Source of the DNA: Arthrinium phaeospermum
Taxonomy: Eukaryota > Ascomycota > Sordariomycetes > Amphisphaeriales > Apiosporaceae
Reading direction: 5' to 3'
Assembly: GCA_006503535.1 (NCBI GenBank)
Contig: QYRS01000002.1
Span: 4,278,001 to 4,342,000, forward strand
DNA length: 64,000 nt
The notes under the pieces were generated by a model, which worked only from the letters and a program-made list of their open reading frames with translations, did not search any database and was not told the origin of the DNA. Of the stretch, positions 43,125 through 64,000 are shown in pieces; position 1 is the stretch's first letter, and the number at the start of each line of letters is the position of its first letter. Both the position numbers and the translations under genes were made by a program.

Positions 43125-44435
43125 TTAATCAAAAACGTTCGAGGCCAAGAACTCAACAAGATCGGGCAATTGGGGCACCAATGTACCGAGGCGGCGAGTG
43201 AATTCGATGTGGTCGAGGTAGTCTGCGACCTCCTCGCTGGCGTCGTAGTCTTCATAAGCAAATGCTAAATTAATTTGGGGAGCATGCCCTTTCACTTCAC
43301 AAAGGCGATTCCGAAGCTCCTCGTGGTGCTTCAGAGTTTCTGTGATGGGCGACGCTCTTACCGCATCTTTGGCGAGCGCGGTGATGGGTTGGAAGGACGT
43401 GGCAAGTGCAACAGCGACGGATGTGACCAGGCATGAATACTTGGCCAGAATCAGGGCGTTGAGCAAGAGCATGCCGACCTTGTCATGTACAACCTCGGAG
43501 TCGGGATTGGCGAAATAGCCCAAGTAGCTATCAAACCAAACCTCTCTGCTTTCGGTTTGCTCGGTTGAGAAAAGTAGGCATAGTTTCCCGATAGGATATG
43601 TGTTACAGAGCGCGACCCTGAAGTCATTCATCTTAGCAGGTGAAGTCGACCCGTTTGAGATGGACAAAGCGACACTGCCGATGACATGGGAATCCATACG
43701 TAGCTTGTAGGCGCACTGGGCCAGGCAGCACATGAACTTTTCAGGGATCTCAAGTGTTCTATTCGCAAAAGAATCCATCTGGTCGGGCATGTAAGCGCAT
43801 GAGAGAGCGTTACAGGTCAGAAGTACTCTTGTATAGTCGAGGAGACCAGCAGTTTCTGCCTTATCAGCCCTGTAAAGCTCTACGTCGTCGAACTCGAAGT
43901 AAGTCTCGCCAATCTCTTTTTGTTGGGCCAGACTCCGGAGAGAGCTTTCAGAGAAATTGGGACCGGGGGTCAAGGTGCCGTCCATCAAGAGCGAGAACAA
44001 TGCAGCCGTTCTTCCCGGCTCGGGTTGGCTGCTGGGACCATGATTGGTTTGAAGTCGTTTCGCAATGCGCGGCAGCAGGCCGTCTGGCGGACCCCGCTTT
44101 CGGTTCTCGGCCGGACTGGCGTCGGCATCGCGCTCGTTGGCTTCACGTGCTTTGTTGTCGTGGCGGGCGCGCTCCGCGCAATGTCGGATTCGTGCCAAGC
44201 GCAAGTCGTCACGTCGGGAGGCCAACACTTTCTTGGCTTCTTGGATGTTGTGAGTGGCGCGGTCGGCCTGCTCGCGCAGCTCGGCGGGAACCTCTTTGTC
44301 CTCGCTGTTGTACACGTCGACGACGGACTTGACGTGGGCTCGATAGTAGAACTCGGTCTTGTCAAATTCATGTTGCTGCTCTTGCAGGCGAGCCTCGGCG
44401 TCGCGCACGGCTTGGGCTGCAGTCGTGTCGGCCAT
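43125..44435 (-). CDS. Clustered family member 1: coiled-coil protein with blocks A-D
   Basis: Single exon, 436 residues, clean ATG. Residues 5-100 are a Glu/Arg/Ala-rich coiled coil. A basic patch at 111-128 (NRKRGPPDGLLPRIAKRL) has the family pattern KR..P.D...AKR, a possible bipartite NLS. Block A at about 204-222 (VLLTCNALSCAYMPDQM), block B at 238-260 (LAQCAYKLRMDSHVIGSVAL), block C at 323-347 (LLLNALILAKYSCLVTSVAV), block D at 390-432 (FAYEDYDASEEVADYL then LVEFLASN). The hydrophobic block C is long enough to be buried or membrane-associated. No known domain recognised. First of the cluster after the 42.3-kb AT island. Confidence 0.82.
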   Translation of the reverse strand: MADTTAAQAVRDAEARLQEQQHEFDKTEFYYRAHVKSVVDVYNSEDKEVPAELREQADRATHNIQEAKKVLASRRDDLRLARIRHCAERARHDNKAREANERDADASPAENRKRGPPDGLLPRIAKRLQTNHGPSSQPEPGRTAALFSLLMDGTLTPGPNFSESSLRSLAQQKEIGETYFEFDDVELYRADKAETAGLLDYTRVLLTCNALSCAYMPDQMDSFANRTLEIPEKFMCCLAQCAYKLRMDSHVIGSVALSISNGSTSPAKMNDFRVALCNTYPIGKLCLLFSTEQTESREVWFDSYLGYFANPDSEVVHDKVGMLLLNALILAKYSCLVTSVAVALATSFQPITALAKDAVRASPITETLKHHEELRNRLCEVKGHAPQINLAFAYEDYDASEEVADYLDHIEFTRRLGTLVPQLPDLVEFLASNVFD

Positions 44436-45385
44436 TGTGATTGTGTGTGTCGTGTTGGGAAGTAAGACTTGACGAATGAAGTTTTGAGAGTAGCACCAGA
44501 ATCGGTTTTATCGACTTTCCACGTTAGCATTTACTTGTGGAATGAACAGGATGGCTCAAGGGGAATAATGGAAATACCTCAAGCAAAACTGTTATTCCTT
44601 CTCCAATCAGGTCCCGGGTAATGAGGAATCAGCACGGAATAGAAAGGGATGAACGCCGAAAGTCGGGAGAATAATTAAGAGGGAGGTAGGTGGGTAGCAG
44701 ATAGCCCTGGAGATACTTTGGGCGACGAAGAGAGGAAGCAACAGAGCTGGGAAGTGTTTGCTTACTAGAAGGTGTCTGAAAGTTGTGAGAAGGACATGAG
44801 TAGCTCGAGACGTGAGTGATGCGAATTTATAGTGACTGGTGCAGGTGAGTTGAGTGTAAGTGGTCCCCGAACTTCAATCGCCAGGAATTAAATGCTATTG
44901 AATGTACCTAGTAGGAATTCAAAAGTTGCATTCAATGAGGGGAGGTGAAAAGCAACCTAACTCTAGGTACTTACCTGATTTCACACGCTTACGTTGTTTC
45001 AACAATTTCCGTACAGGCTTCCTCAACAGCCTCGGTCACAGCATAAACACAAGTGAGAAACGACCAACCCCAAGAACAGCATTCATTATTGGCGAAAATC
45101 ATACTTTCATCCACATCAATATCAGCAGTTGAAAATTGGTTCTTGTCCGCCATCATTAATCAACTTGAACCAACTACATCTGGTTTGCCGAATCACGCCA
45201 GTATCAAGACCTCCCGAGGAACAACTATTCGCATTCGCCAACCAACTCATCACGAACTGTCGTCCTTGGCAGCCAACCTCAGCTTGCTACTTACATTCAC
45301 GATTCCCGAGTTTCGTTCGCGGCAAATTGCAGTCGACATTCACCCACCAACATCCCATCCTTCTGCCACAGATTAATGATCAATC
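44436..45385. other. Divergent intergenic region
   Basis: About 950 bp between a minus-strand and a plus-strand gene, so it holds both promoters. The right half (45030-45385) is C/A-rich like a fungal leader. No gene supported. Confidence 0.5.
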
Positions 45386-47002
45386 ATGGCTGAGGCTCAA
45401 GATCATGCTGAAGTGGAGGCCGAGAGCGTCGCCAAGTATTTCTTGAAAGAGGTCATACCCCGCAGCCTCAAGCTTCTCAATATGCCAAGCGGAGACTCTG
45501 GGCTGTCAGAAGAGTCCAGCGACAATGAGGAGACATCAGCGGATATGTCCCCACTCGGACGATACGTGGGCGGCGGCGTGAACCTGGGCGTCATAGCTTG
45601 CAGCGTAGGGGAGTATCCAAGAAACGGAGGTCTCGTGAGACTGAAAGCAAAACGGGGCACACGTGCCGGCGACATACCGGTAAATGACGAGGTGGGCGAA
45701 GAGGCCAAGGTCATGATTACCGATGCCAAGGGTCGGCCACACAAGTCGCCGGTCAACCCGTTCTGGCTCTACTGCATACCAGGACAATTATCATTGGCCA
45801 AGGGATATCTCAACCAGTCGGCCATGGCAGGCATGGAAAATGATATCCGAACTCAGCACCAGGCAGAACTAGCGGCCCTCCGGATACCGACCGCACCCAA
45901 GGTCTTATGTGATGCGGCTTTGGAGGATAAGCGATTCTTACTGAAAGGCGACTTCCTGTTCGAACACAACATCACACGCGGTTGCTTCCCATACCACACG
46001 GTTTACGCTTTCGAGAAGTTCGATTGGGATGATGAACTCATTGCTCTGTTGCAGAATTTCAGGAGAAAACATCCACACGATATCCTGCCTTTGGGAGTTA
46101 TTCAAGTTGGCCTCCTCAACTATTGGTGGGAAAACCGTGCGATTGGGACTAGGCCGTGGCTACTCAATAGGACTTCGCTGGCCAAGTATCTGGTGTATTT
46201 CGTTGTGTGTCTCGCGCGAGCCGTCACCATGGGCACCGTACTCATCAACGATCCGCTTGAGTTCGCCGTTGCATCCTGGAAGACTGAGAACAGCACGGGT
46301 AAACACAGCCGTGGCTTGGACTGCCAGATCCACGATGACTCCATCGATGCCACCCTTTGCTTGGAGCTTATCGACCGGCACCGTCCTAAGGTCGTCGAGA
46401 GACTCTTGACCTCGGATTTGGAAGGCGCTCAACAGCCCCGAATCGATCCAGATTGTGAGGTATTCCAGGAGCATCTGGATATCGAGGAAAGCGCCAATAC
46501 CCGAGATGAGGTCATACGCAATACGGTACAACGGATCGGCAACATGCGGCAGCACGGGGCCGGCCGCTTGCTCGATCCCAAGGCGAAGCGGCATTTCATA
46601 CTGATGCCGATGTCTATGAGAGAGCCTTGGGATACTTCACCGATCGAGGTTTTTGAAGACGGCGCCCCTGACGCGAAGACGATCAAGAGAATTGAGAAAG
46701 CGCACCAAGCCCGGATCTACCAGTTCCCCGACGAAGACGATGAGCCCTTTGAGGCGTCGCGCAAGCGTACCCACGCAATGATACGAGAGCAAGAAGACCG
46801 ACTACCCCACCGAAAGAGACAGCGAGTGACTCGGCAGGTCCCGGGCTGGGATGAGCTCTCCGAACCCGTCAAGACGATCGTGAAACAGTCCCGCATGGAA
46901 AACACCTCGCCTGACGAGCTGAATGAGGCGGCCAACTTCCTTCGCCGTGTCGACGGGTTTGAGCATGGCTTTAGGGCGGGTAGCAGGCCCAATGGTAACT
47001 GA
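45386..47002 (+). CDS. Unknown protein inside the family cluster
   Basis: Single exon, 538 residues, ATG at 45386. N-terminus acidic and Ser-rich (SGLSEESSDNEETSAD), then a Gly-rich stretch (YVGGGVNLGV). The middle looks folded (PVNPFWLYCIPGQLSLAKGY, FLFEHNITRGCFPYH, LPLGVIQVGLLNYWWENR). A hydrophobic segment SLAKYLVYFVVCLARAV recalls block C of the surrounding family but sits mid-protein and lacks the other blocks, so I do not assign it to the family. The C-terminus has a basic patch SRKRTHAM...HRKRQRVTRQ (possible NLS) and ends in a helix (SPDELNEAANFLRRVDGF). No function recognised. Confidence 0.75.
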   Translation: MAEAQDHAEVEAESVAKYFLKEVIPRSLKLLNMPSGDSGLSEESSDNEETSADMSPLGRYVGGGVNLGVIACSVGEYPRNGGLVRLKAKRGTRAGDIPVNDEVGEEAKVMITDAKGRPHKSPVNPFWLYCIPGQLSLAKGYLNQSAMAGMENDIRTQHQAELAALRIPTAPKVLCDAALEDKRFLLKGDFLFEHNITRGCFPYHTVYAFEKFDWDDELIALLQNFRRKHPHDILPLGVIQVGLLNYWWENRAIGTRPWLLNRTSLAKYLVYFVVCLARAVTMGTVLINDPLEFAVASWKTENSTGKHSRGLDCQIHDDSIDATLCLELIDRHRPKVVERLLTSDLEGAQQPRIDPDCEVFQEHLDIEESANTRDEVIRNTVQRIGNMRQHGAGRLLDPKAKRHFILMPMSMREPWDTSPIEVFEDGAPDAKTIKRIEKAHQARIYQFPDEDDEPFEASRKRTHAMIREQEDRLPHRKRQRVTRQVPGWDELSEPVKTIVKQSRMENTSPDELNEAANFLRRVDGFEHGFRAGSRPNGN

Positions 47003-47713
47003 GGGGCGGCATGATATGACCTACAGGTTTGAGAACAGATGGAATGATGATGTGGGAAAATGGGATCACCGCATCTCACAAATGACATACTCCGTGTCTG
47101 ATTCTGTATGAGTTTAATTCAGTAAATAGTAGTTGGCTTCGCCATGGCACGATCAATGGAGACATTACACCAAATCATTTTGTAAGCTATTATGCGTAAA
47201 GTGTCAAGGCATATGGAATACAAGAAAGAGCGTCAGATAATATTCAATGTGGTTACGTGGTTGTAAATTCTGGCCTTTCACAAAACGTAACATGCAGCTA
47301 AGGGTTCTATCTATCCAGACAAATGGAAGGAATGCAGTCCAGATTCTCGATTAGGAAAATACATTCAATAGCCTCAATTCTAGGACAGTACTATAAATAC
47401 CAGCCCTCATGCCCCATTGTACTTCCTCCCCCTCCAAACCTCTCAACATAAACCTGTGTCTTAGTCAATTTGGGCGCTGGGTGACTAAAACAGTCTGGAC
47501 CTCCTGGATTGTCGGCGTCATACAAGCCGAACAAGCTGCACAGGTACTTCGATTCACAGAAGCCCTTTACGCCCTACACGCCTTACACGTTTTACGCATC
47601 CGACACACTTCGCTTTCCTTCCACACTTGGACAAGTCAAACACACCATACGCGCCTTTCGTGTTGAACAGACACCTCTCACCCCGCTTACTACAACTAGT
47701 TCTATTTGCAGTC
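47003..47713. other. 5' region of family member 2
   Basis: About 710 bp between two plus-strand genes. Includes a possible core promoter (TATAAATA at 47392) and a C/A-rich leader with short CCTACACGCCTTACACG-type near repeats at 47570-47590. No gene. Confidence 0.45.
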
Positions 47714-49128
47714 ATGGCCGGTGTAACAGACTTGCAGCAGAAACTGCATGACACGGAGGATGAGATCAAGCACCTGGAAACCCAGCTCGTGCAAGAGGAG
47801 GGGAAGCTCAAGGGTTTCCAAGATGCGACCTTGACGTACCTCAATGACAAACCCATCGCTGCCGCCATGCAAACCGAAGCCAACAATGCATTGGAGCGCA
47901 TCGCCAACATCCGAACCCGCCGCGATGAGTTGACGAAGGAAGCCGAAACACTCCAATTCCTATCCAGCATTCAGCTGCCGCAAGCGAGAGACACCGACCA
48001 GAATGGCAACGACCAGCGCGACGCCGAGAATGGACCCGCAGCCAACAGAAAGCGGTCCGCCCCTGCTGACTCGGCCCAGGCCATAGCTAAGCGATTTCGC
48101 GCGTACCAAGGCAACAGCCGGATTAACGTCGACGAGATGATCTACGAATCTCTGCCGTCGGATGAGATCAGAGCGGAAGTCAAGGATATCATGAACCGGG
48201 ATGACGAAGGCTCCTACTACGCGCGTCAAGTGTGGGGAGCCAAATTGCTTCGCCCGTACTTCCAGGACGGCACCCTCATCATGAATCACAACATCAAGTT
48301 CAACGTCACTGGCGAGCTGGGCTACTTGCGCGCCAATCGCGAGGCCTTCCTGCGACAGAGAGGTTGGGTTTGGAAGGCAGTTACACGGAGACATGAGATA
48401 AACCTCAATAATGCAGTCGGTTTGTTGAGCAACCGCACTGTCAAATCAGTGTCTCACTTGCCTCTTCAAATGCAGAAGATTGCTTTGGGGGTTCAAGGCT
48501 CGTTGGAGTCCCAAGGCCGCCTTGACGAGCTCCTCCAATGCGTACGCAACCTGCAGATGGACTCGGCTGTGATTGGCCAGCAAACCATGGATATATTGCG
48601 CAAGGTCAATCCGGTCAACGGTATCCGGCAGCTGGTGGAGGCGCTCAACAACACGTATGATAATCATGGTATGCTCGATGTGTTCAAGGTGCAAGAGGGT
48701 GGTGGCGAGGAGATCCTGAGCAACGCCTGTGCCCTGGACCATGGGGCCGCAAACTGATGATGATGAGACTACTTTGGTCATCCCTGGTGCTCGCGAAATA
48801 CACCAGCCTTGCGACGTGGCTCACAGTGACAATCCGTGCCAAGTTTCGCAGGGCACCGATGGCTTTCGAGGCCATCAGCCATACCACCCCCCATGACTGT
48901 GAGCAACGCCAAAAAGCCCTCCAGGACGCTTGGGACGAGTTTTGCACTGCAAACCAGCCTGTTGACATCGAGGATTGCGCGGCTCGCTACAATCCAGATG
49001 GAACCATTCGGGATACGATCGTCGAAGATGGGGTCGTGACGGATGAGATGCTTGAGCTGGGCCACAAGGTAGAGATCAAAAAGGGCTATATGTTCAGGTG
49101 GCTAGGAGGCAATCAGTTGCTAGATTGA
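47714..49128 (+). pseudogene. Clustered family member 2, interrupted by a frameshift
   Basis: The first frame (47714-48757, 347 residues) has the coiled coil (3-85), the basic patch NRKRSAPADSAQAIAKRFRA (111-130), block A (234-256, VGLLSNR...VSHLPLQMQKI) and block B (273-297, LQCVRNLQMDSAVIGQQTM). It stops at TGA 48755-48757. The remaining family sequence continues at once in another frame (48757-49128): block C as LLWSSLVLAKYTSLATWL and block D as ARYNPDGTIRDTIVEDGVV through FRWLGGNQLLD. The spacing to the intact copies is conserved, so a single-base loss at about 48755 explains it; no intron with good signals fixes it. The stop and the next ATG overlap (TGATG). It may be a recent pseudogene, an assembly error, or two separate products. 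Confidence 0.75.
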
Positions 49129-51258
49129 ATTGCGGGGCAAGTTTCACATGAGAACCAAGTGCAGCAAGGAAGGGGATTTGGGCGAATGCTACTTGCTGGA
49201 TCTGTACGACATGATTCACATGAGGCGTGGAAGATGCACCTATTACCCCGATTTGCGATGGCGGTGCAGCAGTGGTGAGCGCGATGGACGCATTGAGATT
49301 GGAGATTGTGGAATGGAGCACAATGCCTAAAGTCAACCCCCAACAGCCCCGATGGCTTATCTGTGCGTCTACACAACTGACTACGGGAAGATTGCGTGCA
49401 TACGGGTATGAGGAACGCGCAAATAACTCGGCCTGCAAATAGCTCTGAGACCCGCGGCTTGCTTTGTGCCATATCACAAGACTTTGCGAGCGGTTTCCTT
49501 GATAGTACCGTTATCCACTTAAGTAGGGTAATTAGGTGTCCTCAGCCACGCGCTATTTGTGGGGATCGCATTCTGTCAACAACCTTAAATTGACTACCTG
49601 CCAACATACTAGCGGAGCTACAACTCCTTATGGGTTCTCCCTGTGAATAAGTCCAGTCCATGCATGTCTGCAGACACTCTAACGTTGGATAAGCAGAAGA
49701 AAATGGAGGCGATCTATCACCCCCTACACCGTTTCTAACCGGGGCTGCCTATACAGGATGGTGTCTCCCAGCTGAGTACATGTGTCGCTGATATCCAATC
49801 CTCGCTGGCAAAAGGCGACATAGACAGGACAAATCCGGAGCTGACTTAAGTTGTGGCAAGCGGTGTAAGCATAGGACCAATGGAGTAGGGAGCAAAGAGT
49901 TGATTAATGGAGGAAAGAAGAGAGTCCCAGAGAGAAGCTCTGAGATGTGACTATACGGATATACAGGCAAGGCACGTGACTACTATCTCAACAAGGGGTA
50001 CTCAACTGCGCGGTTAACACCAGCCCCCTTTCTTTTCCCGATCTTGCCCGTCGCCAGCCATCCATCATAAGTGCCAATTTCCTCACCCATCATTCAGCGC
50101 CAGCATTTGTCCGAAACCTAGCCCTCGAGACCTGTAGTATATGGCCAACATCAGCTATGAAATGCTCCCAGTCGCGGCGGTGACTCGAATAATGGGAAAT
50201 GATAGGGCAGTCTTGTTTGTGGTCGTCGGACATCTGATCGATGGTATATTCCTTGTCATCTCTTCTTGGACTCTCTAACGTCCCTGAAGGGGCTCCCTCC
50301 TCACAACGCAGTGTCAGTTTTCCATCCCACTGCAAGCTGTCCCACTGAGGAAATATAGCTTTCGGAGGGCTGATCAGCAGTGCAGAGTGCGTATGATCAT
50401 GCCCATTTGGTCATGACTGTGGAAAGACCTGGATTCGCGTAGTCTCCTTAGGTCAAAGACAGATGCAAATATTGGCACAAGCCAAGAATGCATCACGACC
50501 AAACTCAGTTGCGAAGACCGCAAAGATCCATTTCATCTGCTCTAAAAGGCTTACATATGGAATCGCCCATCCTGAAATTGGTTGGTGGGGTTCTTTGGGA
50601 TCTTGGCCCCAGAGGAGTGAGGCTCCCTATTGTGACCGAGACTTTTGTCACTTGAGGGCTTTCTCGGGGGCGGCGTCAGAGATCCCCTTCAATCTGCACC
50701 AGTTCCAAAAATTGCCAGCCTGCTAGCCAGGCGATGGGCTTCATGCAATTCACCCCCACCTCCGTTCCTGCCTCCATATTGCTGTCTGCACCATCGCCCG
50801 ACGTTGGTTAGGAACCCCCTATGCTGCCCTGCATGATCCTGAGATATTAAGGGCCTAGCCTTCCATATGATGATACTGTTGCGGCTCCTGCGTGTATTGC
50901 AACCCAGCCAACCCACGCAGCCCACGCACCTCACGTACCTTGTACGGTTTACAAACCTATACGGATTTCGTCACTTACAAGCTTTTCATCGACAACGCAG
51001 ATCAAGTACCTCTCATACCCCACGTGTGTTATGCATTTCACGCAACAGCACCGGCTCGCAGCCGTTCCGGGCCGGAGCGGAACCAGTTGCGACTCAAGCC
51101 CCGGTCGGTTGGCAAGCCCTACATACGGTGCGCGAGCCACACTGGAACGCGAGCGATACGTGCGTCGCGAGCCGCACTTGGACCGAGAACCCATTATTGC
51201 AGGGTTGCTGCCAACCACTATACGGAGTTCCCCCTGAAAAGTCAAGTCCCCTCTCTCC

Positions 51259-51259
<1 letters not shown>

Positions 51260-51295
<36 letters not shown>
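51260..51295. repeat. Homopolymer C36
   Basis: Uninterrupted run of 36 C, followed by a T-rich stretch. The complementary G36 could form G-quadruplex DNA. Confidence 0.95.
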
Positions 51296-51797: not shown

Positions 51798-53141
51798 ATG
51801 GCGCGCGTCACGCTTGACATGATCCGCGGGGATGAAGATACGATCAGGGCCGTCCAGGAGCGTATCACGAACAAGACTCGCGACTATGAGGTCGAGATCG
51901 AGCCGGCGCTTGAGCATGCGGAGCGAAAGGTTGCGGAGTTTCAGGCTATGAAGCGCGCCTTGACTGCCGAACAGCGCGCAGAGTACGAGAAAATGCGCGT
52001 AAAGCTCGAGGATCTGCGCGCGAAGTCCGCGGATGCTTCGAAGGAGATCGAGCGCGAAGAGGAACACGAGCGTCGTCTCCGTAGTGGCCTGGGCAACAGA
52101 AAGACCCGGTTCGCCGGCCAGGAGTGGCTGGATAGCCACAAGACCGCCGCGGAGGCGAAGGACGACAAGGACGCCGAAGATGCGAAAGACGCGAAGGGCG
52201 TGGTCGGCACGAAGCGCGTTGCCCCAGTCGACGAGGGACACATAGCCTTGGCGAAGCGAAACTGCCGCCGATTCGTCCTCGCCACTGAAGACGGCGACTT
52301 GGTCTACGAGGATGCCGAGATGTACGAGATCATGAAGAAGGACACGAAGAAGGACGGCTTCGTTCTGAACTCGGTCCCATCTGGCGCTAAAGATGCGATG
52401 GAGAAGGTCGTTGTGCTTCTCATCAGCGACCAGGGCGAATCGATCACCGAGCGCCCCCAGCAGATGGACCCACTGCCGCGCAAGTACCCCCAGAACGACC
52501 AATACGCGCTGAGCACGCTCACTACATGCCTGGGCAACCTTCAGGATGACACGAAGATCCTGGGTGACAGAATGATGGAAATGGTGAGCGGTACGGGCGA
52601 TTTGCATACGATGGCCACCGACATCGCAGGCGCACTGGAGCGAACGTTCAGAGCACACCAGCTTCGACTAGTTTACGGCATGCCGGACGGCGAGCCCATG
52701 GAGAACATCATGAACGGCTTGTATAGCGAGGATATCGACACACAGAAAACCATGGTTCTCCAGCTCTTCCGATCGGCCCTCGTCCTGCGAAAGTACGCAT
52801 GCCTCGCGACCGGTCTCGCCGTGGCCATCGCGTCAAAGTTCGGACGCGGCGACGGTAATAGTCGGCGCGACGCCATCAACGATGCTACCTTGAAACACTG
52901 TGTCCAGCACTATCGCGAGCTCCTCCAGGCTTACGAGACGTACGCCTCCGATGCTCCGCAGCTGGCCAACGCGCTGCCCGGCACGCTCGAGTACAACAAG
53001 GACAACAAGGTCGGCGCAGTGCTCGCGGACGACCTGATCAAAGTCGGCCTGCAGAAGCTCGGCAAACAGAAGCCCGGCAAGCAGCTCCTTGGCGACTGCG
53101 ACTCGCTCGAGTTCCTTGGATCGGTCGGTTACGGTGGTTAA
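51798..53141 (+). CDS. Clustered family member 3: coiled-coil protein with blocks A-D
   Basis: Single exon, 447 residues; ATG at 51798 is the first ATG in frame. Charged coiled coil at 15-100 (YEKMRVKLEDLRAKSADA, EIEREEEHERRLR), Lys/Asp-rich linker, basic patch 137-158 (VGTKRVAPVDEGHIALAKRN). Block A 203-227 (KVVVLLISDQGESI...QQMDPL), block B 241-263 (TTCLGNLQDDTKILGDRMM), block C 323-349 (LFRSALVLRKYACLATGLAV then ASKFGRG), block D 397-447 (LEYNKDNKVGAVLADDLIK to LEFLGSVGYGG). Closest by eye to the copy at the right edge, with which it also shares 3' flanking DNA. The best preserved member together with the one at 60 kb. Function unknown; possibly nuclear because of the basic patch. Confidence 0.85.
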   Translation: MARVTLDMIRGDEDTIRAVQERITNKTRDYEVEIEPALEHAERKVAEFQAMKRALTAEQRAEYEKMRVKLEDLRAKSADASKEIEREEEHERRLRSGLGNRKTRFAGQEWLDSHKTAAEAKDDKDAEDAKDAKGVVGTKRVAPVDEGHIALAKRNCRRFVLATEDGDLVYEDAEMYEIMKKDTKKDGFVLNSVPSGAKDAMEKVVVLLISDQGESITERPQQMDPLPRKYPQNDQYALSTLTTCLGNLQDDTKILGDRMMEMVSGTGDLHTMATDIAGALERTFRAHQLRLVYGMPDGEPMENIMNGLYSEDIDTQKTMVLQLFRSALVLRKYACLATGLAVAIASKFGRGDGNSRRDAINDATLKHCVQHYRELLQAYETYASDAPQLANALPGTLEYNKDNKVGAVLADDLIKVGLQKLGKQKPGKQLLGDCDSLEFLGSVGYGG

Positions 53142-53204
53142 TTCGGATGGGGCGCACGGTGCTTTCCGGCTAGTCCGAGGGGGGAGGTCTAGGGTGAAAG
53201 CTAC

Positions 53205-53345
53205 ATTTGATCACACTGTATAATAGTATGCGCGTAAAGCGCGATGGGCGCGAAGCCAAATACCCTTTACGTGCAGGGGCTAAGTAGATAGCCGGGACAC
53301 TCATACGCCTTTAGTTCTAATGCATTCGCGATTCACTTTATACGG
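53205..53345 (+). repeat. 3'-flank segment duplicated at 63530-63690
   Basis: Begins about 60 bp after the stop of family member 3. Words such as ATAGTATGCGCGTAAA, GGCGCGAAGCCA and TTCGCGATTCACTTTAT recur in the same order in the 3' flank of the right-edge copy on the opposite strand. Confidence 0.85.
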
Positions 53346-54967
53346 TAGTTTTCAGTGCCCGATGTATCTATATACCATCATAACGTTATTTGAAGCAGGA
53401 GTTCCCCGCCAGAATGACCGGGAGAATCAACATGCATGCCAGATCGATCGCAATCAGTTCCCCCGCCTATTGCACGAAAATCACATATTCCGGTCCGATA
53501 GGTACGCGGTCATGTGCTTCCTGGCCTTGAAATAGGCCAACCTCATATGGGATAAGTGCTGAAAAACGCAAGTTGCGGTCGGCTAAGATGCACAGACAGG
53601 TCTCGACGACGTGGTCGGCTTGCTGCCTGACCAAGACGCCCCGCCCACTTCCAACGTCCCTCCCCAAATGACCACGATTTCCGAGAAGGAGCGGGGATTG
53701 GAGGTACTAGTGAAGTGACAAAGGAGGAAACACAACAGAAGGGGAAATGTAGAAACCAGGATGCGCAGGAAGACGGAGAAAATGGGGAACGGGAGTGGAC
53801 GGGGAGATCGGGTAGACGCTAAAGTCGCAGGTAGTCAAATTAAGGTAGTGCCAGGGATGATGCCCTACCCGAGAGGCTCTAACCATTCGCTCGCAAGCCC
53901 CGTTTTCCAATGATCTGTAACGTCACACCGAGATCACTTCGCTCGTCTACGACTAGGACAAGAAAGGCAGTAAAGGCCTGGAGATCCCCGTATCAATCGT
54001 CGTCTCAAGACCCCCCCCTTCATCTTGAGGGCAATTGCCGATGGACTGGGGCAAACGCCTAGCACTAGGAATTCGAGTCATGATCTAGGAAATGGAAATG
54101 TGGGTGGGGCAAATGGCTTGGGAGCGTCCCGGTAGCTCGTCACCCGGACCACAGACCAGGAAATCAGTTTATGTGCGGCGAACATATTTCTGGGCCACGA
54201 ACTCGGCTGGCTAACTGTCTGCCGGGTTAAGCAGGTGCAACATAAACACATTATATCGCGTATCCCAATGGTTCGAGGGGTGGCGCGGCTTGTGATCGAA
54301 TATATATAAGACGGAGGTAAAGCTGAAGAGAGGTTTCTGCAAGTGTATTAGGGTGGTTGGCCCGAGCCCAATGCTCTGTTGTGCCTTCATACTATATATG
54401 GTACAGATTGACCAAGTGCAAATGGCTCGCCCAAACTACCCCTGGGTTATACACACCTTCCAAATCCCCGTTTGCCCATCACAAACGGAGCGGCAAATTC
54501 CGGCGGGCCATTCAGTACCAATGACCGAAACAGATGACGCAGAGACAAAAGCCCGGATGGGGCAAATAGTAGATCGGCAAGTAGTACTGGCAAAGAGTCC
54601 TTGGGGGGGGGGGCGGGCAAGAGGCTTGCTTGGGCTGCGACTGTTCCTGGATATCGGATCGCTCGCAAAATCCAAGCAGTGGAAGGAAGTTGTTTCCCGA
54701 CGGATGTGCGCCATACAAGTCATCCAAGATGCCTCCAAAAATAGCCCACCAAGCTTGGGACCCCCTAGAGGGTTTCGCTGTGGAGGCCTTGGGTGCCTTG
54801 CCTGCTTGCCTGCCGCCTCGCAACCCGGGAAATCGTCGGACCAAGTCTGCCACGATCCCGTTCCTAGGGTCTAGCTGGGGGTAAATCTAACCGCTTAGTC
54901 CGTCAATAGATGACCGGCCCTTTGGCACTTTAAGGCATCCCCTGGCCGCCTTACTGAGTTGGCAGCC
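53346..54967. other. Gene-free region
   Basis: About 1.6 kb with no supported gene. Contains a purine-rich stretch (53700-53820) with GTGGACGGGGAGATCGG, resembling the unit of the minisatellite at 59.2 kb, and a G9 run near 54603. Confidence 0.45.
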
Positions 54968-55997
54968 ACTATAATCAGGTATCTTCTTTCTTTCTTTTTT
55001 TTTTTTCGATTCGTATTAAGGTTTCCCGGTAGAAATAAAAGATTTATAAAGAGTAGGTTACTTTAAAAATAATAAATTTAAAAATAAAATATTATATTTA
55101 ATATTTTTAAAATTTTTAAAAATATTTTAATAATTATAATTTTTATAAATCGATAAAAGCTTAATAATGATTAATATATCGGTAATTATAAAATTCTTTC
55201 TCCGATTCCGGTCTTATTTCTAATCGTAATAATTTAGTAGATTACGTATAAAAAACTATCTTTACTTTCTTTATCGATTATTTAAATTAAATCTTTTATT
55301 TAATACGATTATATATACTATTTATTATCACGTTTATTTATTATAACGACGAAAATTTCCGAGATTAATTAACGCTTAATATATTACGAAAAAAGGAAGT
55401 TAATAACGAATAATTAATACGAAATTATTTATTTTAATACTTTAAAATTTTTAAAGAAGTATAAACGGTTTCGAAAGTTTTTAAAAGTTATTAAATATAA
55501 GGTTCGAAAAAATCCTTTATTTAAACCGGCTTTTTATAAAGTATATATTATTAATTATAAGCTTTTTTTAAAAAAATAAAATCTCGGCGATAACGAAGCT
55601 TTCTTTATTAAATAAATTAAATTACTTAAAGATTTCCATAAACGGGAAATAAAAGAGGAAAATATTATTTAAATATTATTTTTTAATCGTAATATTTATT
55701 TAAAAAAAAACCTTTAATTCCGGGCGTTAATCGAAGGGCTCGGCGAAAAGGATAACGAATAAATCGATCGAGGCGGTAACGAATTAAGCCGAGGCTATAC
55801 GTAATAACACGTCGGATTAATAAACTTAGAAAAGGGAGGGAGGGAAAGAGGGAAAGAAGGAAGGCGTTATATAAAATTAATTAAATAGTTTTAAACCTTA
55901 TCGATCGATAATATTAATATTAATATTTTATATATAATATAAACTTTTAAATTAATATAGTTTAGCCTCTTGCCTAGGAGGACTATAGTCAGGTATC
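54968..55997. repeat. AT-rich RIP-like island flanked by 16-bp direct repeats
   Basis: About 1 kb, very AT-rich, with no frames; CA and TG are almost absent while CG and TA are frequent, the pattern left by C-to-T mutation at CpA. The island is bounded by ACTATAATCAGGTATC (54968-54983) and ACTATAGTCAGGTATC (55982-55997), identical but for one A/G. Likely a mutated mobile-element relic; type unknown. Confidence 0.75.
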
Positions 55998-56390
55998 CCG
56001 ACCTGAAGTCCGGTCTGCGCCAATTTTTCCTCACGGCTCAACAACTGTGTTTGTCACGCCCAAATTAATTGGGTCAATGCCTATCAACCTCGCCAGCTCG
56101 AAACAGGCCAACGTCAGTTGCGATGGATAATATGGACATTTTCACCTATAATCTAGCACTCGGACAAGAACACGTTGAGGCTGCGTTTGGAACTCTCTTT
56201 ACAATGAAGTGCATCTGTATTGGTGTCCCAACCGGCTGCCCTAGGGATTCTCACTGCTAGCTACATATGAATTCCGATTGCCACGAATCCAAATCCACGT
56301 CCATTTGACGACACTGCATGGACTTGCCACGAACGTGTGAAAATGTACCAGCCGCTAAATTGCTTCTATCTCCAGTGAATATCTGGTCAT
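55998..56390. other. 3' flank of family member 4
   Basis: About 390 bp of ordinary composition. A 63-codon frame (56069-56260) has no support. Confidence 0.4.
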
Positions 56391-57338
56391 TCAGTCCGAA
56401 AATCGCTTCTCGCCGAGGAGGGAATAGAGGCAGAAGTCAAGGTCAGGGATGTGGCGCATGTCCCAAAGTCGCATCGCAGCTCCCATGAGTATGAGCTCCG
56501 TAGCAACTTGGCCCTTCGGATCGTATCGCAGGATGGGAGTAGGCTTCTCGGCCAGCTTCTTGTCGGCCGAGGACACTTCGGTATGATGAACTTCGTGCAG
56601 CTCGCGACAGAGCCGGGCGCAGCGGACGATGTTCTGATCGGTAATGGCTTCGGGGCGCTTTGCCGGCGCAAACTGCAGGGTGGCCGTGAGGCAGGTGACA
56701 AGGCAGGTGAAGAAGGCCAGCTCCTCGGCGGACTGCAAGAGCCGCATTACCATGGGCATCTTCTCACCTGGATCCTCGCTTCTCAGGCGGAGCTCGATGA
56801 GCTTGAGTGAGAACTTTCCATCGGGGATGTCGTAGAGGGTGTGGAGTAGGTCCTCGTCGAACGTATTAACGACCGAGGCCATGACATTAATAACGTGGTC
56901 AACGTTATCGGTGCCCCGGACCATGGCAAGAGCCGCATTTCCGAGTTGGGTTGCGTACCATTGGATCCGTTCAGTGGCGGTAATCAGGGCATCCATTTTC
57001 TGATCCTCGTGGTTCAGGTCGCCTGAAACTAGAGGCAGCATTTGCATGGGCAGGTGGCTGATCGACTCGTTACTGGTGTTGGTGACGAGGGCGATGATGT
57101 CGTCGAGGCTCCCCTTCTGCTCCATTATGGCCGGCCCATGGTCCATACCCTGTTGCTTGGGAGCGGCGTCGATAGGACAGCACGGGCAAGGAACTGTGGC
57201 CTGGGCAGTCGCGACGCGCGCAGCCATCTCCTGCGAATCGCGCTTCTTCTTGGCCTCAATGATGATCCCCTTCAGTCTCTCGGCCTCCGCCTTGTCTTTG
57301 GCGGCCTGTACAGCCTGTTTCTTGGCGCGACGGTCCAT
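56391..57338 (-). CDS. Clustered family member 4: short form
   Basis: Single exon, 315 residues, ATG at 57338. The coiled coil is reduced to a Lys/Ala-rich helix (1-40) and the basic AKR patch is missing. Instead there is a Cys-rich turn, VPCPCCPIDAAP (49-60). Block A at 81-103 (IALVTNTSNESISHLPMQML), a degenerate block B at 125-141 (QWYATQLGNAALAMV), block C at 198-220 (RLLQSAEELAFFTCLVTCL) and block D at 270-311 (RYDPKGQVATELILMGAAM, then LYSLLGEK). So it keeps the four-block body but has a different N-terminus, either a diverged subtype or a truncated copy that gained a new start. Function unknown. Confidence 0.78.
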   Translation of the reverse strand: MDRRAKKQAVQAAKDKAEAERLKGIIIEAKKKRDSQEMAARVATAQATVPCPCCPIDAAPKQQGMDHGPAIMEQKGSLDDIIALVTNTSNESISHLPMQMLPLVSGDLNHEDQKMDALITATERIQWYATQLGNAALAMVRGTDNVDHVINVMASVVNTFDEDLLHTLYDIPDGKFSLKLIELRLRSEDPGEKMPMVMRLLQSAEELAFFTCLVTCLTATLQFAPAKRPEAITDQNIVRCARLCRELHEVHHTEVSSADKKLAEKPTPILRYDPKGQVATELILMGAAMRLWDMRHIPDLDFCLYSLLGEKRFSD

Positions 57339-57533
57339 GTTGAGTAGTTGGTTGTAGCTTGTTGGGTTGTTGCTTGGCAGGAGGGCCAGTTGGATTGAAG
57401 GAAGTTGGTGAGAGAGATTGGAGCAATCAAAATTGCTGGCGAGTTGAGAACCTGGTGAATGGTCGGAGAATTATGGAAGAGCTGGTGGGGGATGCGGAAG
57501 AGATGTAAGCAACATGTTTTGAAGGTTCGAAGT

Positions 57534-57575
57534 GAATACAATTCTTCTCGAATTGAATACAGTTCTTCTCGAATC
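57534..57575. repeat. Two tandem 21-bp units upstream of family member 4
   Basis: GAATACAATTCTTCTCGAATT followed directly by the same unit with two differences. About 200 bp upstream of the gene's ATG, so possibly in its promoter. Confidence 0.8.
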
Positions 57576-58135
57576 GAAAAAAAGACGCGCCTACCCTCCG
57601 TGACATTGTATCAGTTCGACGTCCTACCGAGCCCTACGCCTCCCGTCTCCCCATCCGTCCATCCGCCGGAGCCATCCTTCAACCAATTGTGATCGCTGTA
57701 TGAGATCACTTACCCTTGCTGAGCACGATGAGATGTACGATATGACGATCATTATTCGAGGATTCGGAGAGAGTTACCGGCACATTTACGATGATGATTA
57801 ACGCTTTAGTTGGCATGAGACCACAATTACGGCGTCGCATTTCAGCATCTTCGGTTTTCAGGTTTCTTTTCTTAGCATTTCTTCCCATTTTTAAATTTGT
57901 TAAGTGTATTAAAAACAACTATTAGCGATTTCAGATGTCAAACAGCCGGTTCACTATAGCAGCGCCACGCGAAAGACACGGGTCAAGTTGGCCACGAAGC
58001 GAACGAGGCAGGCCGCCAGCAAATCAGGCAAGCAAGGCTTGTCGTGCATATTATTGACATTTATAAATGTCAGACATACTATGAGATGTTAACGTCCCAT
58101 CCGCATGGATCACATCCAGACAGTACTGCAGTTAA

Positions 58136-58800
58136 TTATGCAAGACACTGAGTGTATGGCATTACTGTATGGATATCACATCCTGCTACGACCACAACGA
58201 TGAAATACCCCTTCCTCTCTAACATTCCCGCTGCGTAAGATGCCCTCGTGCTCTCCCATTCCTCCTCGTCGTTAATCTCTGGTCTGCAACTGCCAGCGTA
58301 CTGTCCCGTCACCTTGAGTTTCGACTCATGCTCCTTCTTAGCAAGGGGCACGGATCTGCTCATTCGAACATAGACGAGGTATGCCTTGCCCGAGTAGGAG
58401 GGCCCGGAAGCCGTGGGGAACTGAATGCACCCGTTTACGTCGCAACTCGTTAGGTTGGCCAACCTGCCATGCCCCCAAGTCACCACTACCAGAGCGTACT
58501 CAGGGAATCGCGGCGCGAATTCCATGGGCCATACACGCCACCCGCCTGGATATTGGCGCAGAAGGCGAGGTGCCAGAGACTTCTGCAGTCGTGCGGTGTG
58601 AGCCCGAAACGACCTTTCGTCTTGATGAATGGGGGAAAGGAGCAAAGGAGATGCCGACGATTTAGGATGATACTGCCGTCGGGTACGTCGCGTACGGCCC
58701 AGTGCTGTTGTTCCGCCACAAGGCGGAGATTGCGTAACCCGGAAAGGTTCTCAAGGCATTGTTGTGGTGTCGCGGTGCCAATGCGTCAAGCCACAGCCTC
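58136..58800 (-). pseudogene. Possible broken gene of unknown family
   Basis: Two overlapping minus-strand frames read like one protein with a shift near 58650: first QQCLENLSGLRNLRLVAEQQ and HWAVRDVPDGSIIL, then RSFRAHTARLQKSL, WRVWPMEFAPRFPEYALVVV and GKAYLVYVRMSRS, ending at 58136. The first part resembles the Leu-rich stretches of fungal F-box-type proteins. There is no good start codon and an in-frame stop lies just upstream. Weakly supported. Confidence 0.3.
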
Positions 58801-59214
58801 TCATGCGATGCCACCGGCGCGTGTGAAGCAATCGTCCCTGTGTGCCTCAAATTGTGGCGAGGCAGAGCCTCCTCCTCTGCTGGAGCAATCCCACTACGGT
58901 CCGACGAACTCAACTGGTCCAGTGCACCAGCTCTGGCGTATTTCAATAGACAGGACAGATATTGGAGGGGGTTTCAAGACGACCATTTACACGGAGGTCC
59001 CCAGGACGTCACTGACCCTCGTGTCGTTGTAGAAGTCGAGCGAAGTGATCTAGGCGTGAAACCATTGCGCAGTACTGAAAAGGGGTTACCCTGCGCGAGA
59101 GGTAGCTGGATATTATAATGAATGGTCAATGGCATGATTGATTAAAGGGAAATCGTAGCAGAAGCGGAGAATGGAGAATACGGGGTAGGCATGGAAGAGA
59201 GAAGAGAGGAGAAA

Positions 59215-59431
59215 ACGGGGGAAAAGGGGGAAATCGTGCTTAACGGAAAATCCGTGCTGAACGGGGAAATCGGTCGGAGCGGAAAAGCCAAAAGCCAAAA
59301 GCCGGGCTGGACGGGGAAATCGGTCTGAGCGGGGCAATCGAGCTGGTAGGGGAGGTCAGGCTAGACAGAGAAATCGGGAAATCGGGAAATTGGGAAATCG
59401 AGCTGGACGGGGAACTCGGATAGACGGCGAA
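59215..59431. repeat. Degenerate minisatellite, unit about GCTGGACGGGGAAATCGG
   Basis: Around ten imperfect units of 9-20 bp, with shared cores GGGGAAATCGG and GCTGGACGGGG, including the internal run GGGAAATC repeated three times at about 59370-59400. Lies 3' of family member 5. Confidence 0.8.
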
Positions 59432-59965
59432 GGTAGGAAAAACTGGAAAGGGCGGTCACCGCGCCGAGGTTTTACTTGTAAGCGTGAACTTCAAAGTTGC
59501 AGATAGTAAAATCAAGATTCTGTCAGGGATATGCATACGACCTTCGCCAGTCGCCCGCCTGCATACAGAAAAAGAGCGAGTCGGGGATGCTAGAAGTCTA
59601 TTACTATGAAAGACGTGTGGAGGAGGTCCGCCGACCTGATTTTCCGCTCCGGAGTATTAAGGTAAATCACCCTAGTGGTGTATGTATGAATTCAGTCGCA
59701 AAGTCGTTTTCCTCAAACCATATGCCCGCTCGAACCTTTTCGACTGTGGGCTTGGGCGCCATCTCATGCGGCGCTGCCTCGCCGAAACTTCTTTTAGTAC
59801 TAATACAGTGCTGTTTTCCCGCCCGTCCCTCCCATAGCACTTATCCTGCAACATCCACGTTGGTCCCATTTGCCGCGTTGATGCCGTCGTTCAAATCAAG
59901 TCGACCGTGGTCAAGAACGCATACCAATCCCCAGCGGACTATCCCGGGCTGGTAATCTCCCTTCT

Positions 59966-61228
59966 TCAGTCTTGGCCATCGCCGACTGAACCAAGGAACT
60001 TGAGCAAGTCGCGCTTGAACTCTCGCTCCTGACCCAGCTTCGCCAGGCGACCATTGATCAGGCCGTTCTCCAAGATGCCGCCGACCCTGTTGTGCTTGTT
60101 GTAGGCGATCATGGCACGCGGGATTTCGGGCAGCTGTGGACCCTCGGCAATCTCCCCGACGTACATCTGGTAGAGCTCGCCATGGTACTCCAGGCACCGT
60201 CGAAAGGTTTTATCGGCGATGGCGCTGCGACGCTCGTAGTCCTGCGAGCCGCCTTGACCGCGACCGAATTTCGGAGCGAGGGCAACGGCGAGGCCAGTTC
60301 CCAGGCATGTGTACTTGGCCAGGACTACAGCATGGTGGAGAAGACTCAAGCGGATGTTCTTCTGCACAGAGACCTCCAAGCTACCCAGGCTGTGCACGAT
60401 TGCCTTGATGGGGTCGTTTTCCTCGGCGTAGATTTCGCGCAGGTCGTGGATATCGTGGATTCTCTCCAAAGAGGCCACGAGGTCGTTGATGGTGTCCTCT
60501 TTCATCTTCCCATCGACGATAGCGAGTACTGCGCCGCCTAGGATAACACTGTCGTGCTGGAGGTTGCGCAGAGACGTGATGAGAGGGTCCATGATTAAGT
60601 GGTTGTTCTTAGTTGGCAAGCGCGGAATACGATCCATCTGCTTCGGGCAATGGGTAATCGACGCGTGGAGGGCCGGCTCGATACCCTGGTTGGTAAGCAA
60701 GGCGACCGTATCTTTCATGGCTACCTTGGCATCCGATGGCACAGTGACCCACATGAGGCCGAACCGCTTCATGATTATGTCCATGTGCGCATTGCCAAAC
60801 AAGGCTTCGTCATCCTCAGTGAGAACACCGCCGCCTTGGTCAATCTGTGTAGCCAGCGTCACAAGCGAAGCACGATCGTCGGGCAAGCCGCGCTTCTTGC
60901 GACCCGCGCCGCTACCATCGACGTCGGGCTTGACTGTAGTGGAAATACAACGAGTGGACCAGTACTTCCCGGCGAAGTAGACGCAAGCCTTGAGGTTGCG
61001 CTCGTTTTCCTTGCGCTTAAGGTGGTCCTCTGTGGCTTTGATGGCCAGGATGTCTTTCTCGGACTTCTCGATCAGCTCGTCAGGCGCGAGCTTTCCCTGG
61101 GCTTTGTATGTTTCGAGGCTCGCCTTGACATTGGCCTCATAGTCATCTCGCATGCCCGAGAGCTTGCTCGTGAGGTTCTCGAAGTCCTCGTTGAGGTCAC
61201 GCAACGTCTGGTCGGTGATGGGCTCCAT
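59966..61228 (-). CDS. Clustered family member 5: coiled-coil protein with blocks A-D
   Basis: Single exon, 420 residues, first ATG at 61228. Coiled coil at 5-80 (LRDLNEDFENLTSKL, KSEKDILAIKATEDHLKRK), basic patch GRKKRGLPDD at 109-118 (the second AKR half is lost). Block A 174-202 (TVALLTNQ...CPKQMDRIP), block B 216-239 (LITSLRNLQHDSVILGGAVL), a SLERIHDIHDLREIY segment (253-267), block C 296-324 (LLHHAVVLAKYTCLGTGLAV then APKFGRG) and block D 374-420 (IAYNKHNRVGGILENGL to KFLGSVGDGQD). This copy and the one at 51.8 kb define the family best. No known domain; function unknown. Confidence 0.85.
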   Translation of the reverse strand: MEPITDQTLRDLNEDFENLTSKLSGMRDDYEANVKASLETYKAQGKLAPDELIEKSEKDILAIKATEDHLKRKENERNLKACVYFAGKYWSTRCISTTVKPDVDGSGAGRKKRGLPDDRASLVTLATQIDQGGGVLTEDDEALFGNAHMDIIMKRFGLMWVTVPSDAKVAMKDTVALLTNQGIEPALHASITHCPKQMDRIPRLPTKNNHLIMDPLITSLRNLQHDSVILGGAVLAIVDGKMKEDTINDLVASLERIHDIHDLREIYAEENDPIKAIVHSLGSLEVSVQKNIRLSLLHHAVVLAKYTCLGTGLAVALAPKFGRGQGGSQDYERRSAIADKTFRRCLEYHGELYQMYVGEIAEGPQLPEIPRAMIAYNKHNRVGGILENGLINGRLAKLGQEREFKRDLLKFLGSVGDGQD

Positions 61229-62289
61229 GATGAATGTGTCAGTCGTAGTTGACGTCTTGCTCTGCAAGTGCGTGTTGGGAAAGGTTAGCTGTAGGGTGTT
61301 TTAGTTGGAGTGTGCTGAGTTGGTCGTTCGGGGTATCAGGTGGAAGTACCAGGCGATGTCGATACCCAGGCAGCTGAGCTTCACTCACCCAGTGGAAGTT
61401 GGCAGTAGCAGTTGTCAGTAGAAGCTGGCAGTGGAAGAGAAGTTTTCGATTACGATTCAAGAGAGAATAAGGTATTTATACTTTAGAAATTAAAACGAAA
61501 AAGGTATATATAGGTACTTACACTAGATAATATTAATCGAAAGAGCTTATAGTTTTAATTAATATAAAAATAGCTATATATTTTATCACCTTTTTTCCCG
61601 CCTATTATTTATCGTTTATCTAGAAATTAAAAACTAAGGGATATTATACGGGCGAGGGCGATCTATTAATTATTATCCTCTCTATCACTATTTATAAAGC
61701 CCACGACGTAACTAGGATATATAATACCCTCTCGTTAATAATCGACTCCTTTTCCATGGCTTTAGCTATAGCCTGTCGCTGAAATCCACGCTCTTGTTAG
61801 CGGGTTATCCCAGCCGGACTCGTTCCTACGGGCTTAGAGCGCAGCAAGCACCTGGAATCCTTTTATGGCTGGGACAACTATGTATGCCCGAACATCAAGC
61901 CGTTCCGGCAATGCCTTACCTGGGAGAACTGTTCTGCCGGTCCAATAGGATTCACAGATACAGGGGTGACTTGGGGGTTTAGGATAGTGTCGGAAATGGT
62001 AATTAGAATATCTCTGCCCATTGAATACGTGCAGCCCTGGAAAATAAGGATGAGCGTACGGCGAAGGGATATCGCACCTATAAAGGCCATAGCGGCATCA
62101 CCGACTCTGGGAGGCTTTTCCGTCGATCCCTAATAAGGATCGACTAGGCGCTGAGGCTTTTCTTATTCGAGATGACCGAGAAACTCGATAGATGCGCCGG
62201 GCCGACCGCATCTAATTCCTCTTTCCATTGCACGAGAATTATCTATCCCGATTCGGTCGTGATATCGGGCTCGATTATAAAGCGTATAT
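61229..62289. other. AT-rich spacer
   Basis: About 1.06 kb: the promoter of family member 5 (61229-61480), then moderately AT-rich, frame-poor DNA (61480-61760) suggesting milder RIP-like decay. No gene. Confidence 0.5.
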
Positions 62290-62690
62290 TCGCTGCCTGG
62301 ACTTAAACCCGGCCGCTTTATAAAGGATAAGCGTTGGAAGCAAGTCACGGCCAAGAGAGAGGCTTAGATAACCCTTGACAACGTGGTCGCCCTTTTGACC
62401 AACCGAGATGCCCCGTCCATCTCCGACGACCCTGGCCAACCGCGTAAGATTTCCGTGACGATTGAGGGCAAACCGAACTACCAGGGCCTACTCAACAGGC
62501 TCTGATATTGCGTCCGCGATCTCCAAGTGGATACAAAAATTATTGGCCAGCAGACCATCGCCATTGTGAAGGGAAATCATCTTTCGGATGGCAGCCCGGC
62601 AAGCGCATTGAAGGTCTTGGATAACACGTACAGTAAACAGACTTCGTTGTTCAATAAGCCGCCTATCTCGTCGTCCTCGCCACACTCTGC
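62290..62690 (+). pseudogene. Relic of a family member with in-frame stops
   Basis: One plus-strand frame carries family sequence: FIKDKRWKQVTAKREA, stop TAG (62365-62367), ITLDNVVALLTNRDAPSI (block A), then LLNRL, stop TGA (62503-62505), YCVRDLQVDTKIIGQQT (block B) and ALKVLDNTYSKQTSLF. The GQQT and NTY words are shared with family member 2. Blocks C and D and the N-terminus are not found. A dead, truncated copy. Confidence 0.75.
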
Positions 62691-63529
62691 GCTTATGAAT
62701 CGCGCACGCGTAGGCGAACGGTATGGGCAACCACCCTGTACTACAAGCCCGGCATGGGATTTCCCATCTGCGAATGTCATACCTGGCGATCCGCCCCAAG
62801 AGCTCAACCGAGGGCCGGCGAAGTTTCCGTCTGGATCAGCCCGCGTGTACTCTGCTGTGGAGCGACTTACAAGCGACTTGTCGTGGCGTAGCTTGTCCTC
62901 GCGGTCTGATTTACATGGCACTGGCTTACCACTTTCGACATGAACCTGTTCATCATCCTTAAACAAGACGACCTCGTCATCCATGGCACTCGCGGCGCAC
63001 CTAGGCTACGCGACGGGGACGAAGGGCTTCGCGTGCGACCTTCGTTTCCCATCTCTAGTCCCCTCCGATGTTGCCCGAAAGATCCAGCACGGCGCTTCCG
63101 GGGTCGATCGCGGGCCGCTCCCGTGCCACTCTGTGAACATCGGGCGGCTTAAGGTACAGCTGGGTGACTTCCGGGGCGTCTAGGGTCGACGAGGGACTCG
63201 GTCTGATGGTCCGTGCGCCATGCGCACGTGACGCCCCTTTTGGTAGTGCCGGTAGCCCCTGAACTGGTAACAGCAACACATACGGTCCACCCGGGGCGAG
63301 ATCAACGTGGATGACGAGATAGACCCCGTTCCAGACCATGACCATGTTAACGGTTGGCAACGTGCCGCAGGGACCTGACCGCGGCCTGCCCGCAGCGATC
63401 GAGTAGGCGCCAAGGGGGCTCTGGGGGAAAAATCTACCCGCCGATCCCGGCGTCGACGATGTGTGCGGCGCTCATTTAACGTGTATGCTTTCACGTGAGG
63501 CACTAGAATATACGAAACTGCACTTAAAG
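62691..63529. other. Region of short open frames, nothing assigned
   Basis: GC-rich again, with overlapping frames on both strands up to 135 codons (for example minus 62577-62984), none recognisable. Could hold fragments of an unrelated gene; not annotated. Confidence 0.35.
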
Positions 63530-63690
63530 AACGTATCATAAAGTGAATCGCGAATTCATTAAACCTTCTCATAGAGTATGAGAGGCTCGGGCTGGCTAAG
63601 TAGCTTCCCGCATATCAAAGGGTATCTGGCTTCGCGCCGATCGCGTTTTACGCGCATACTATGTTACAGAATGATCAAGTGTTCCTTCCC
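63530..63690 (-). repeat. 3'-flank segment duplicated from 53205-53345
   Basis: Read on the minus strand it follows the stop of the right-edge family gene and matches the 3' flank of family member 3 in order, about 85 percent by eye over the first 70 bp (ACTTGATCA, ATAGTATGCGCGTAAA, GGCGCGAAGCCA), then TTCGCGATTCACTTTAT. Confidence 0.85.
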
Positions 63691-63734
63691 CTCGCAAGTC
63701 CCTTCGAACTACCCGAGACCACCTATTCCCCCTT

Positions 63735-64000
63735 TTAGTCGAGACCGGGACCGACCGAGCCCAGAAGCTTAACCAAATCGCAGTCGATGTCCGGGTGCTT
63801 ACCCAGAGTTACCAAACCGCGCTTGATGGTGTCGTTGGCAAGGGTCGCGCCCACCGTGTCGCCCTTGTTGTAGTCGAAGGTGTCGGTCAGCGATCTGGCC
63901 AGCTGCGGGTAGACAGAGCTGTGGTCGACGAAGGAACGAAGTCGCTCGCGATGCTCCATCAGACACTCATTCAGGGCGTGGTGGGTGATCGCGTGTCGAC
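63735..64000 (-). CDS. Clustered family member 6, C-terminal part (gene continues past window)
   Basis: The frame is open to the right edge (RHAITHHALNECLMEHRERL at the edge, aligned with the region after block C in the other copies). Block D is complete: FDYNKGDTVGATLANDTIK, then LVTLGKH and LVKLLGSVGPGLD before the stop. So the rest of the gene, with blocks A-C and the coiled coil, should lie just beyond the window. Shares its 3' flank with family member 3, which points to a recent duplication of gene plus flank. Confidence 0.8.
   Translation of the reverse strand, partial: RHAITHHALNECLMEHRERLRSFVDHSSVYPQLARSLTDTFDYNKGDTVGATLANDTIKRGLVTLGKHPDIDCDLVKLLGSVGPGLD

Follow-up and report, generated by a model that had tools for sequence, protein, structure and literature searches.

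Core-family genes of the cluster

The window analysed here is the whole 64,000-nucleotide stretch C2:4278001-4342000 of the Arthrinium phaeospermum genome (48.4 Mb, 19 contigs). It holds a cluster of genes with four blocks A to D, termed the core family, and, inside this cluster, a gene of a second family, termed the partner family, whose type is the open reading frame (ORF) 45386-47002. Evidence was drawn from this one genome, and member counts are minimum numbers, as only the best candidates are scored in the genome search.

Four intact core ORFs, one frameshifted copy, two relics and an edge copy were found inside the window. The intact genes lie at 43125-44435 (minus strand; 436 aa with a KRGPPDG...IAKR patch; from ORF, search and alignment), 51798-53141 (plus strand; 447 aa; from ORF, search and structure model), 56391-57338 (minus strand; 315 aa, intact frame, with a short N-terminus without the full coil or the KR..P.D patch) and 59966-61228 (minus strand; 420 aa from the ATG at 61228; from ORF, search and alignment). 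The copy at 47714-49128 (plus strand) changes frame near 48.73 kb, being open from 47714 to 48757, beyond which blocks C and D are read in a different frame up to 49128. The edge copy, listed at 63.7 kb in the sequence-only reading that preceded this work, is a family member with its C-terminal part at 63735-64000 (minus strand), and it was additionally found to be an intact gene of 428 aa that continues to 65021 (63735-65021). The one relic of that reading, at 62.3 kb, was recovered at 62368-62940 (plus strand) with blocks A and B separated by a stop, as seen by searches, hidden Markov model (HMM) and translation; a second relic with block A only had been overlooked at 53587-53715 (plus strand; HMM E 0.0012 among 1536 frames; translation). 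The clustering of members with four common blocks in fixed order, borne out by single-protein searches, ORFs and alignment, and the different states of decay among them are real, and the unit is larger than first described.

Searches with single proteins, which are independent of the alignment, connect the members. The 51.8-kb protein gave seven matches in the genome at E <= 0.001, namely itself, the edge copy (E 4e-68), the 60.0-kb copy (E 3e-50), a copy on C4 (E 5e-15), the 56.4-kb copy (E 1e-13), the 43.1-kb copy (E 3.7e-8) and the downstream piece of the 47.7-kb copy (E 4e-5). The upstream piece of the latter matched the 62.3-kb relic (E 1e-14) and the 60.0-kb copy (E 1e-5). Identity among the copies, which lie mostly within 22 kb, is 18 to 40%. 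Among the six intact copies, codon-position conservation follows the order second > first > third in 13 of 15 pairs, the exceptions being C4/43.1 (first position below third) and C4/56.4 (first equal to third). Judged by their open frames alone, the core genes appear intronless, and the picture within this single genome would fit ongoing birth and death of core genes.

Counting copies across the genome, a check proposed in the sequence-only reading, located members outside the cluster as well. The C4 copy is a sixth intact gene (C4:3544332-3545687, 452 aa). A distant member of 565 aa at 5041-6738 (plus strand), with coil, basic KRPR and core, was detected with a core-only HMM, scoring 17.3 bits with the coil left out vs 5.2 for the best of 1000 shuffled decoys. 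Of the remains at C2:495-501 kb, a relic at 498.0 kb carries three stops (E 1.7e-9), and a weak match at 495.8 kb covers the coil only (HMM E 0.0079). Also in the window, at 7978-9390 and about 1.2 kb from the 5.0-kb member, an Argonaute-like open frame carries a Piwi domain (E 4e-68).

The 51.8-kb gene and the edge copy have about 200 bp of 3' flank in common besides coding sequence (52731-53341 vs 63538-64133; inverted orientation, 67% identity), which, read from this alignment, is an old segmental duplication. Such joint duplication of gene and flank, the scatter of copies over several contigs, and AT-rich stretches of RIP-like (repeat-induced point mutation) composition adjoining the cluster (42280-42960, 54990-55970 and 61440-61780; 8 to 30% GC, composite RIP index +0.91 to +1.06) would suit an origin from mobile or viral elements, as remains of their coding sequence or as cargo, with gag- or nucleoprotein-like ORFs spreading and decaying. 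However, the copies found are few and old, and the composite RIP index, measured for seven core-family stretches and the partner gene, is negative throughout; decay of the core family is without RIP-like composition. No viral fold matched at E <= 0.001, and no element enzyme was seen by Pfam among 10 + 9 window and flank frames, no systematic search for enzymes or terminal repeats having been made. This origin is considered quite improbable.

In the core protein, a helical hairpin at the N-terminus and a basic KR patch precede a C-terminal core, likewise helical, that carries blocks A to D. In most members the patch has the form KR-x(n)-KR. A model of the 51.8-kb protein from nine aligned rows (mean predicted local distance difference test (pLDDT) 75.6; predicted template modelling score (pTM) 0.56) places the hairpin at residues 6-128 (helices 6-50 and 57-128), followed by a low-confidence stretch (124-191) that contains the patch and by the core (173-441), whose two long helices span 234-264 and 313-345. 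The patch had been described as KR..P.D in most members, often ending in AKR. In its strict form it occurs in three of seven aligned members (51.8, 60.0 and 47.7 kb) and does not reach a majority; with the variants KRALSVD, KRGVPEG and KRGPPDG it is present in six of seven, the 56.4-kb member being the one without it, and it ends in AKR in four of seven. Block C, described as hydrophobic, proved moderately to borderline so (best 19-residue means between 1.42 and 1.91 across the six intact copies) and corresponds to the second long core helix of 33 residues, modelled within the core; a membrane role for it is conceivable. As the earlier reading had it, no domain could be recognised: scans of Pfam, NCBIfam, PADLOC and PDB sequences or folds gave no convincing match, and the family is undescribed as far as these resources and literature searching reached. 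Compared with PDB and the viral structure library BFVD, the 51.8-kb model had no hit at E <= 0.001. The hairpin dominates the structural list, which tests mainly this part, and a new fold is therefore not claimed for the core.

A partner family beside and fused to core genes

The sequence-only reading took the core family alone as the unit. A second family is found inside the cluster, and adjacent to or fused with core-type sequence elsewhere. Its type gene at 45386-47002 (plus strand; from ORF, paralogues and pattern) is intact, encodes 538 aa with a RKRTHAMIREQEDRLPHRKRQRV basic patch near the C-terminus, and lies head to head with the 43.1-kb core gene (0.95 kb) and 0.7 kb upstream of the 47.7-kb copy. 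A paralogous ORF of 699 aa (C2:4346189-4348285), 4.2 kb past the right end of the window, faces the edge copy head to head at 3.2 kb. The genome search gave further partner matches at C12:370.7 kb, C2:1953 kb and C6:477.9 kb, matches with stops at C1:2352.5 kb (one) and C6:480.3 kb (three), and a weak match at C1:2313.7 kb (E 0.02 and 0.0017). Partner sequence was hence counted at six places: the window cluster (two genes), C12, C6 (ORF and relic), C1:2313, C1:2352 and C2:1953. No Pfam match above cut-off was obtained for the 45.4-kb, C12, C2:1953 and C2:4346 partners and both fusions described below, and a profile-profile test revealed no relation between partner and core domains.

At C6 and C1:2313, the partner domain forms the N-terminal side of a longer ORF (869 aa from the ATG at C6; 862 open codons at C1). 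An HMM built from four non-fused partners detected it with E 1.8e-16 (C6) and E 5.5e-15 (C1), the best of 1000 decoys reaching 0.0024. Toward the C-terminus, each of the two fusions matches the same ORF piece at C2:501 kb (E 2e-13 and 3e-17), located close to the core-family relics. Between its two domains, the C1 fusion carries a charged stretch (44% E/K/R/Q/D), unremarkable in heptad score, and KPKRHRG...PKRLRR; its layout is that of the window core family. Overlapping upstream of this fusion is a 252-codon frame (C1:2313.9-2314.7 kb; L052:1749-2504), which by eye resembles the N-terminus of the C6 fusion and may be separated from the C1 ORF by an intron or frame change.

If the two families work together, core genes are expected near other partner genes. 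This was tested on flanks of 3 kb around the C12 and C2:1953 partners and of 3.2 kb around C1:2352. At C12, a core-type ORF of 487 aa (C12:366952-368412) with a helical N-terminus, KKRRPSRDLSNPPKR and a core was found by the fusions' core profile (E 9.5e-9 among 2349 open frames of the fetched loci); it lies tail to tail with the partner gene at a distance of about 1.6 kb. As a genome query, this protein matched itself alone, in support of the counts being lower bounds. A core-type gene thus accompanies the partner at four of six places, adjacent in the window cluster and at C12 and fused in a single ORF at C6 and C1. By a rough, post hoc estimate, the neighbourhoods of core genes (seven places, 10 kb each side) make up about 0.3% of the genome, several of those core genes having been found by searching beside partners.

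Weighing a proposed two-protein module

Whether the cores of the fusions and of the C12 protein are the same domain as those of the window was assessed by profile-profile comparison with hhalign and 100 decoys. Adding both pieces of the C2:500-kb ORF to the two fusion C-termini gave a score of 23.7 (E 0.025; run without decoys). With the 5.0-kb and 47.7-kb members in the query, a three-row set scored 26.8 vs a decoy maximum of 24.2; a four-row set reached 24.0 vs 21.5, and 31.0 vs 19.2 with these two members. When the C12 protein was added, again with both members included, the score was 36.2 over 226 columns (decoy maximum 18.1; 0 of 100), in a collinear alignment running from block A into block D. 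Support for homology rose with the number of sequences, and helix order and lengths look similar by eye in the 51.8-kb and C6 models. Homology of the window cores with the fusion and C12 cores is regarded as likely, not proven.

Linkage and fusion to the second family suggest that the two proteins work together, perhaps in the nucleus. We tentatively read the core-family proteins as one half of a two-protein module with the partner family, a reading held with a little less than even confidence; the paired proteins would probably be nuclear.

Several results weigh against this reading. The six window cores vs the two fusion C-termini alone scored 2.3, with no meaningful alignment; the three-row set without the two additional members scored 17.9, a value reached by 2 of 100 decoys; and the comparison including the C12 protein is marginal when these members are left out (25.0 vs 24.4; 0 of 100). 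Single-profile searches left both fusions within the decoy range, and the mean pLDDT of 34 for the C6 model makes the helix order weak evidence. A KR-x(n)-KR pattern arises in 43 to 91% of shuffled sequences and is so common by chance that only the fixed alignment position of the KR columns supports the patch. Finally, no core gene was detected near the C2:1953 and C1:2352 partners (two of n = 6 partner places; about 3 and 4.6 kb covered, respectively), nor was a partner detected at three of n = 7 core places (C4, 5.0 kb and C2:495-501 kb) in the surrounding sequence examined.

The latter gaps, together with the presence of HET-domain genes in the region, would be expected if adjacency and fusion were a by-product of two unrelated families favouring the same dispensable chromosome regions. 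Yet both families occur in one open frame at two separate loci, which a regional preference does not explain, and this account is judged improbable.

For the two-protein module, the following mechanism is proposed. The N-terminal hairpin would form homo- or hetero-oligomers; nuclear import would depend on the basic patch, as a bipartite-type signal suggested by the aligned KR columns; and, once in the nucleus, core would bind partner. With less support, the module might serve strain-level non-self recognition or a conflict of the killer/resistance type. Several core copies that diverge, with one or two partners among them, would then give a repertoire of specificities; this would explain the turnover of core copies.

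Possible genetic conflict or ordinary nuclear function

Non-self recognition or genetic conflict would be a plausible role, the least supported part of the mechanism; pointers to it are the 18 to 40% identity, the copies lying mostly within 22 kb, the broken copies and the two-gene layout. The more specific proposal is an undescribed fungal module for conflict or self-recognition in which the fold of the helical core and the partner domain would both be new, encoded by neighbouring or fused genes under local duplication and decay; it is rather unlikely.

Pfam scans bear on these proposals. The HET domain (PF06985) was detected neither in core members and the 45.4-kb partner (E <= 1), nor in the other partners and fusions scanned (E <= 0.1), nor in the C12 core-type protein (E <= 0.01). 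The same library detects it in two neighbouring genes (L037:5242-6966 and L039:4136-5734), located downstream of the edge copy at distances of about 12 and 31 kb; HET-domain genes are common in such fungi, and this proximity counts little. A kinase model was found neither in core members (E <= 1) nor in fusions (E <= 0.1). No Pfam match to a PD-(D/E)XK nuclease was obtained in the core members, partners and fusions scanned, this being a superfamily that often escapes sequence profiles.

The proteins may instead be lineage-expanded, ordinary nuclear regulators (chromatin or transcription cofactors) with the partner as a stable subunit, turnover reflecting drift in a dispensable cluster free of conflict. 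The position of the basic patch between two helical parts, the codon-position constraint, and the Pfam scans, in which the proteins covered showed neither a HET domain nor another known cell-death domain, would all agree with this. Identity as low as that noted, several copies only kilobases apart, relics and a frameshift are, however, unusual for regulators, and no DNA-binding domain was found in the Pfam-scanned proteins. We regard this explanation as possible but doubtful.

Known systems resemble the proposed module in part. Among heterokaryon incompatibility (HI) systems between unrelated genes, two tightly linked genes are the more common form, according to passages of a 2025 review (PMC12881547). 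Two unlike linked genes are likewise seen here, with a partner between two core genes, the C12 pair and the C6 and C1 fusions (four of six places). The likeness to het/vic two-gene incompatibility of ascomycetes, as outlined in that review's passages (PMC12881547), lies in this tight linkage; the core and partner proteins differ in being without HET or other known cell-death domains by Pfam. The Spok genes of Podospora, in the parts of the source that describe them (PMC6660238), encode an N-terminal coiled coil and are multicopy, duplicated and diversified within lineages, features in which the core family resembles them; Spok has nuclease and kinase domains, whereas core and fusion proteins have no such Pfam match. 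Excerpts on Spk-1-like sequences of Neurospora (PMC8092558) present a highly diverse, lineage-specific family without recognised domain, as is the core family; yet Spk-1 has 134 aa and two predicted membrane segments, and core proteins have 315 to 565 aa with a helical N-terminus and core. Neurospora rsk, described (PMC6185902) as conferring resistance in a killer system whose killer and resistance loci are separate, is likened to the module by description alone.

Clustered families free of known domains usually stay annotated as hypothetical proteins. Here two of them are found adjacent and fused, which offers a testable hypothesis on the binding between the proteins and on the compartment where it would occur. 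Should the pair serve strain recognition or spore killing, the mechanism would be one that none of the HET, NLR, gasdermin or Spok sets covers; should it be an ordinary nuclear complex, two unannotated families would still be linked.

Two minor features were seen in the cluster region. A short inverted repeat of 75% identity connects intergenic positions 53923-54018 and 58964-59059, with no core-family reading seen at 59 kb, and a run of 36 C occupies 51260-51295, upstream of the 51.8-kb gene.

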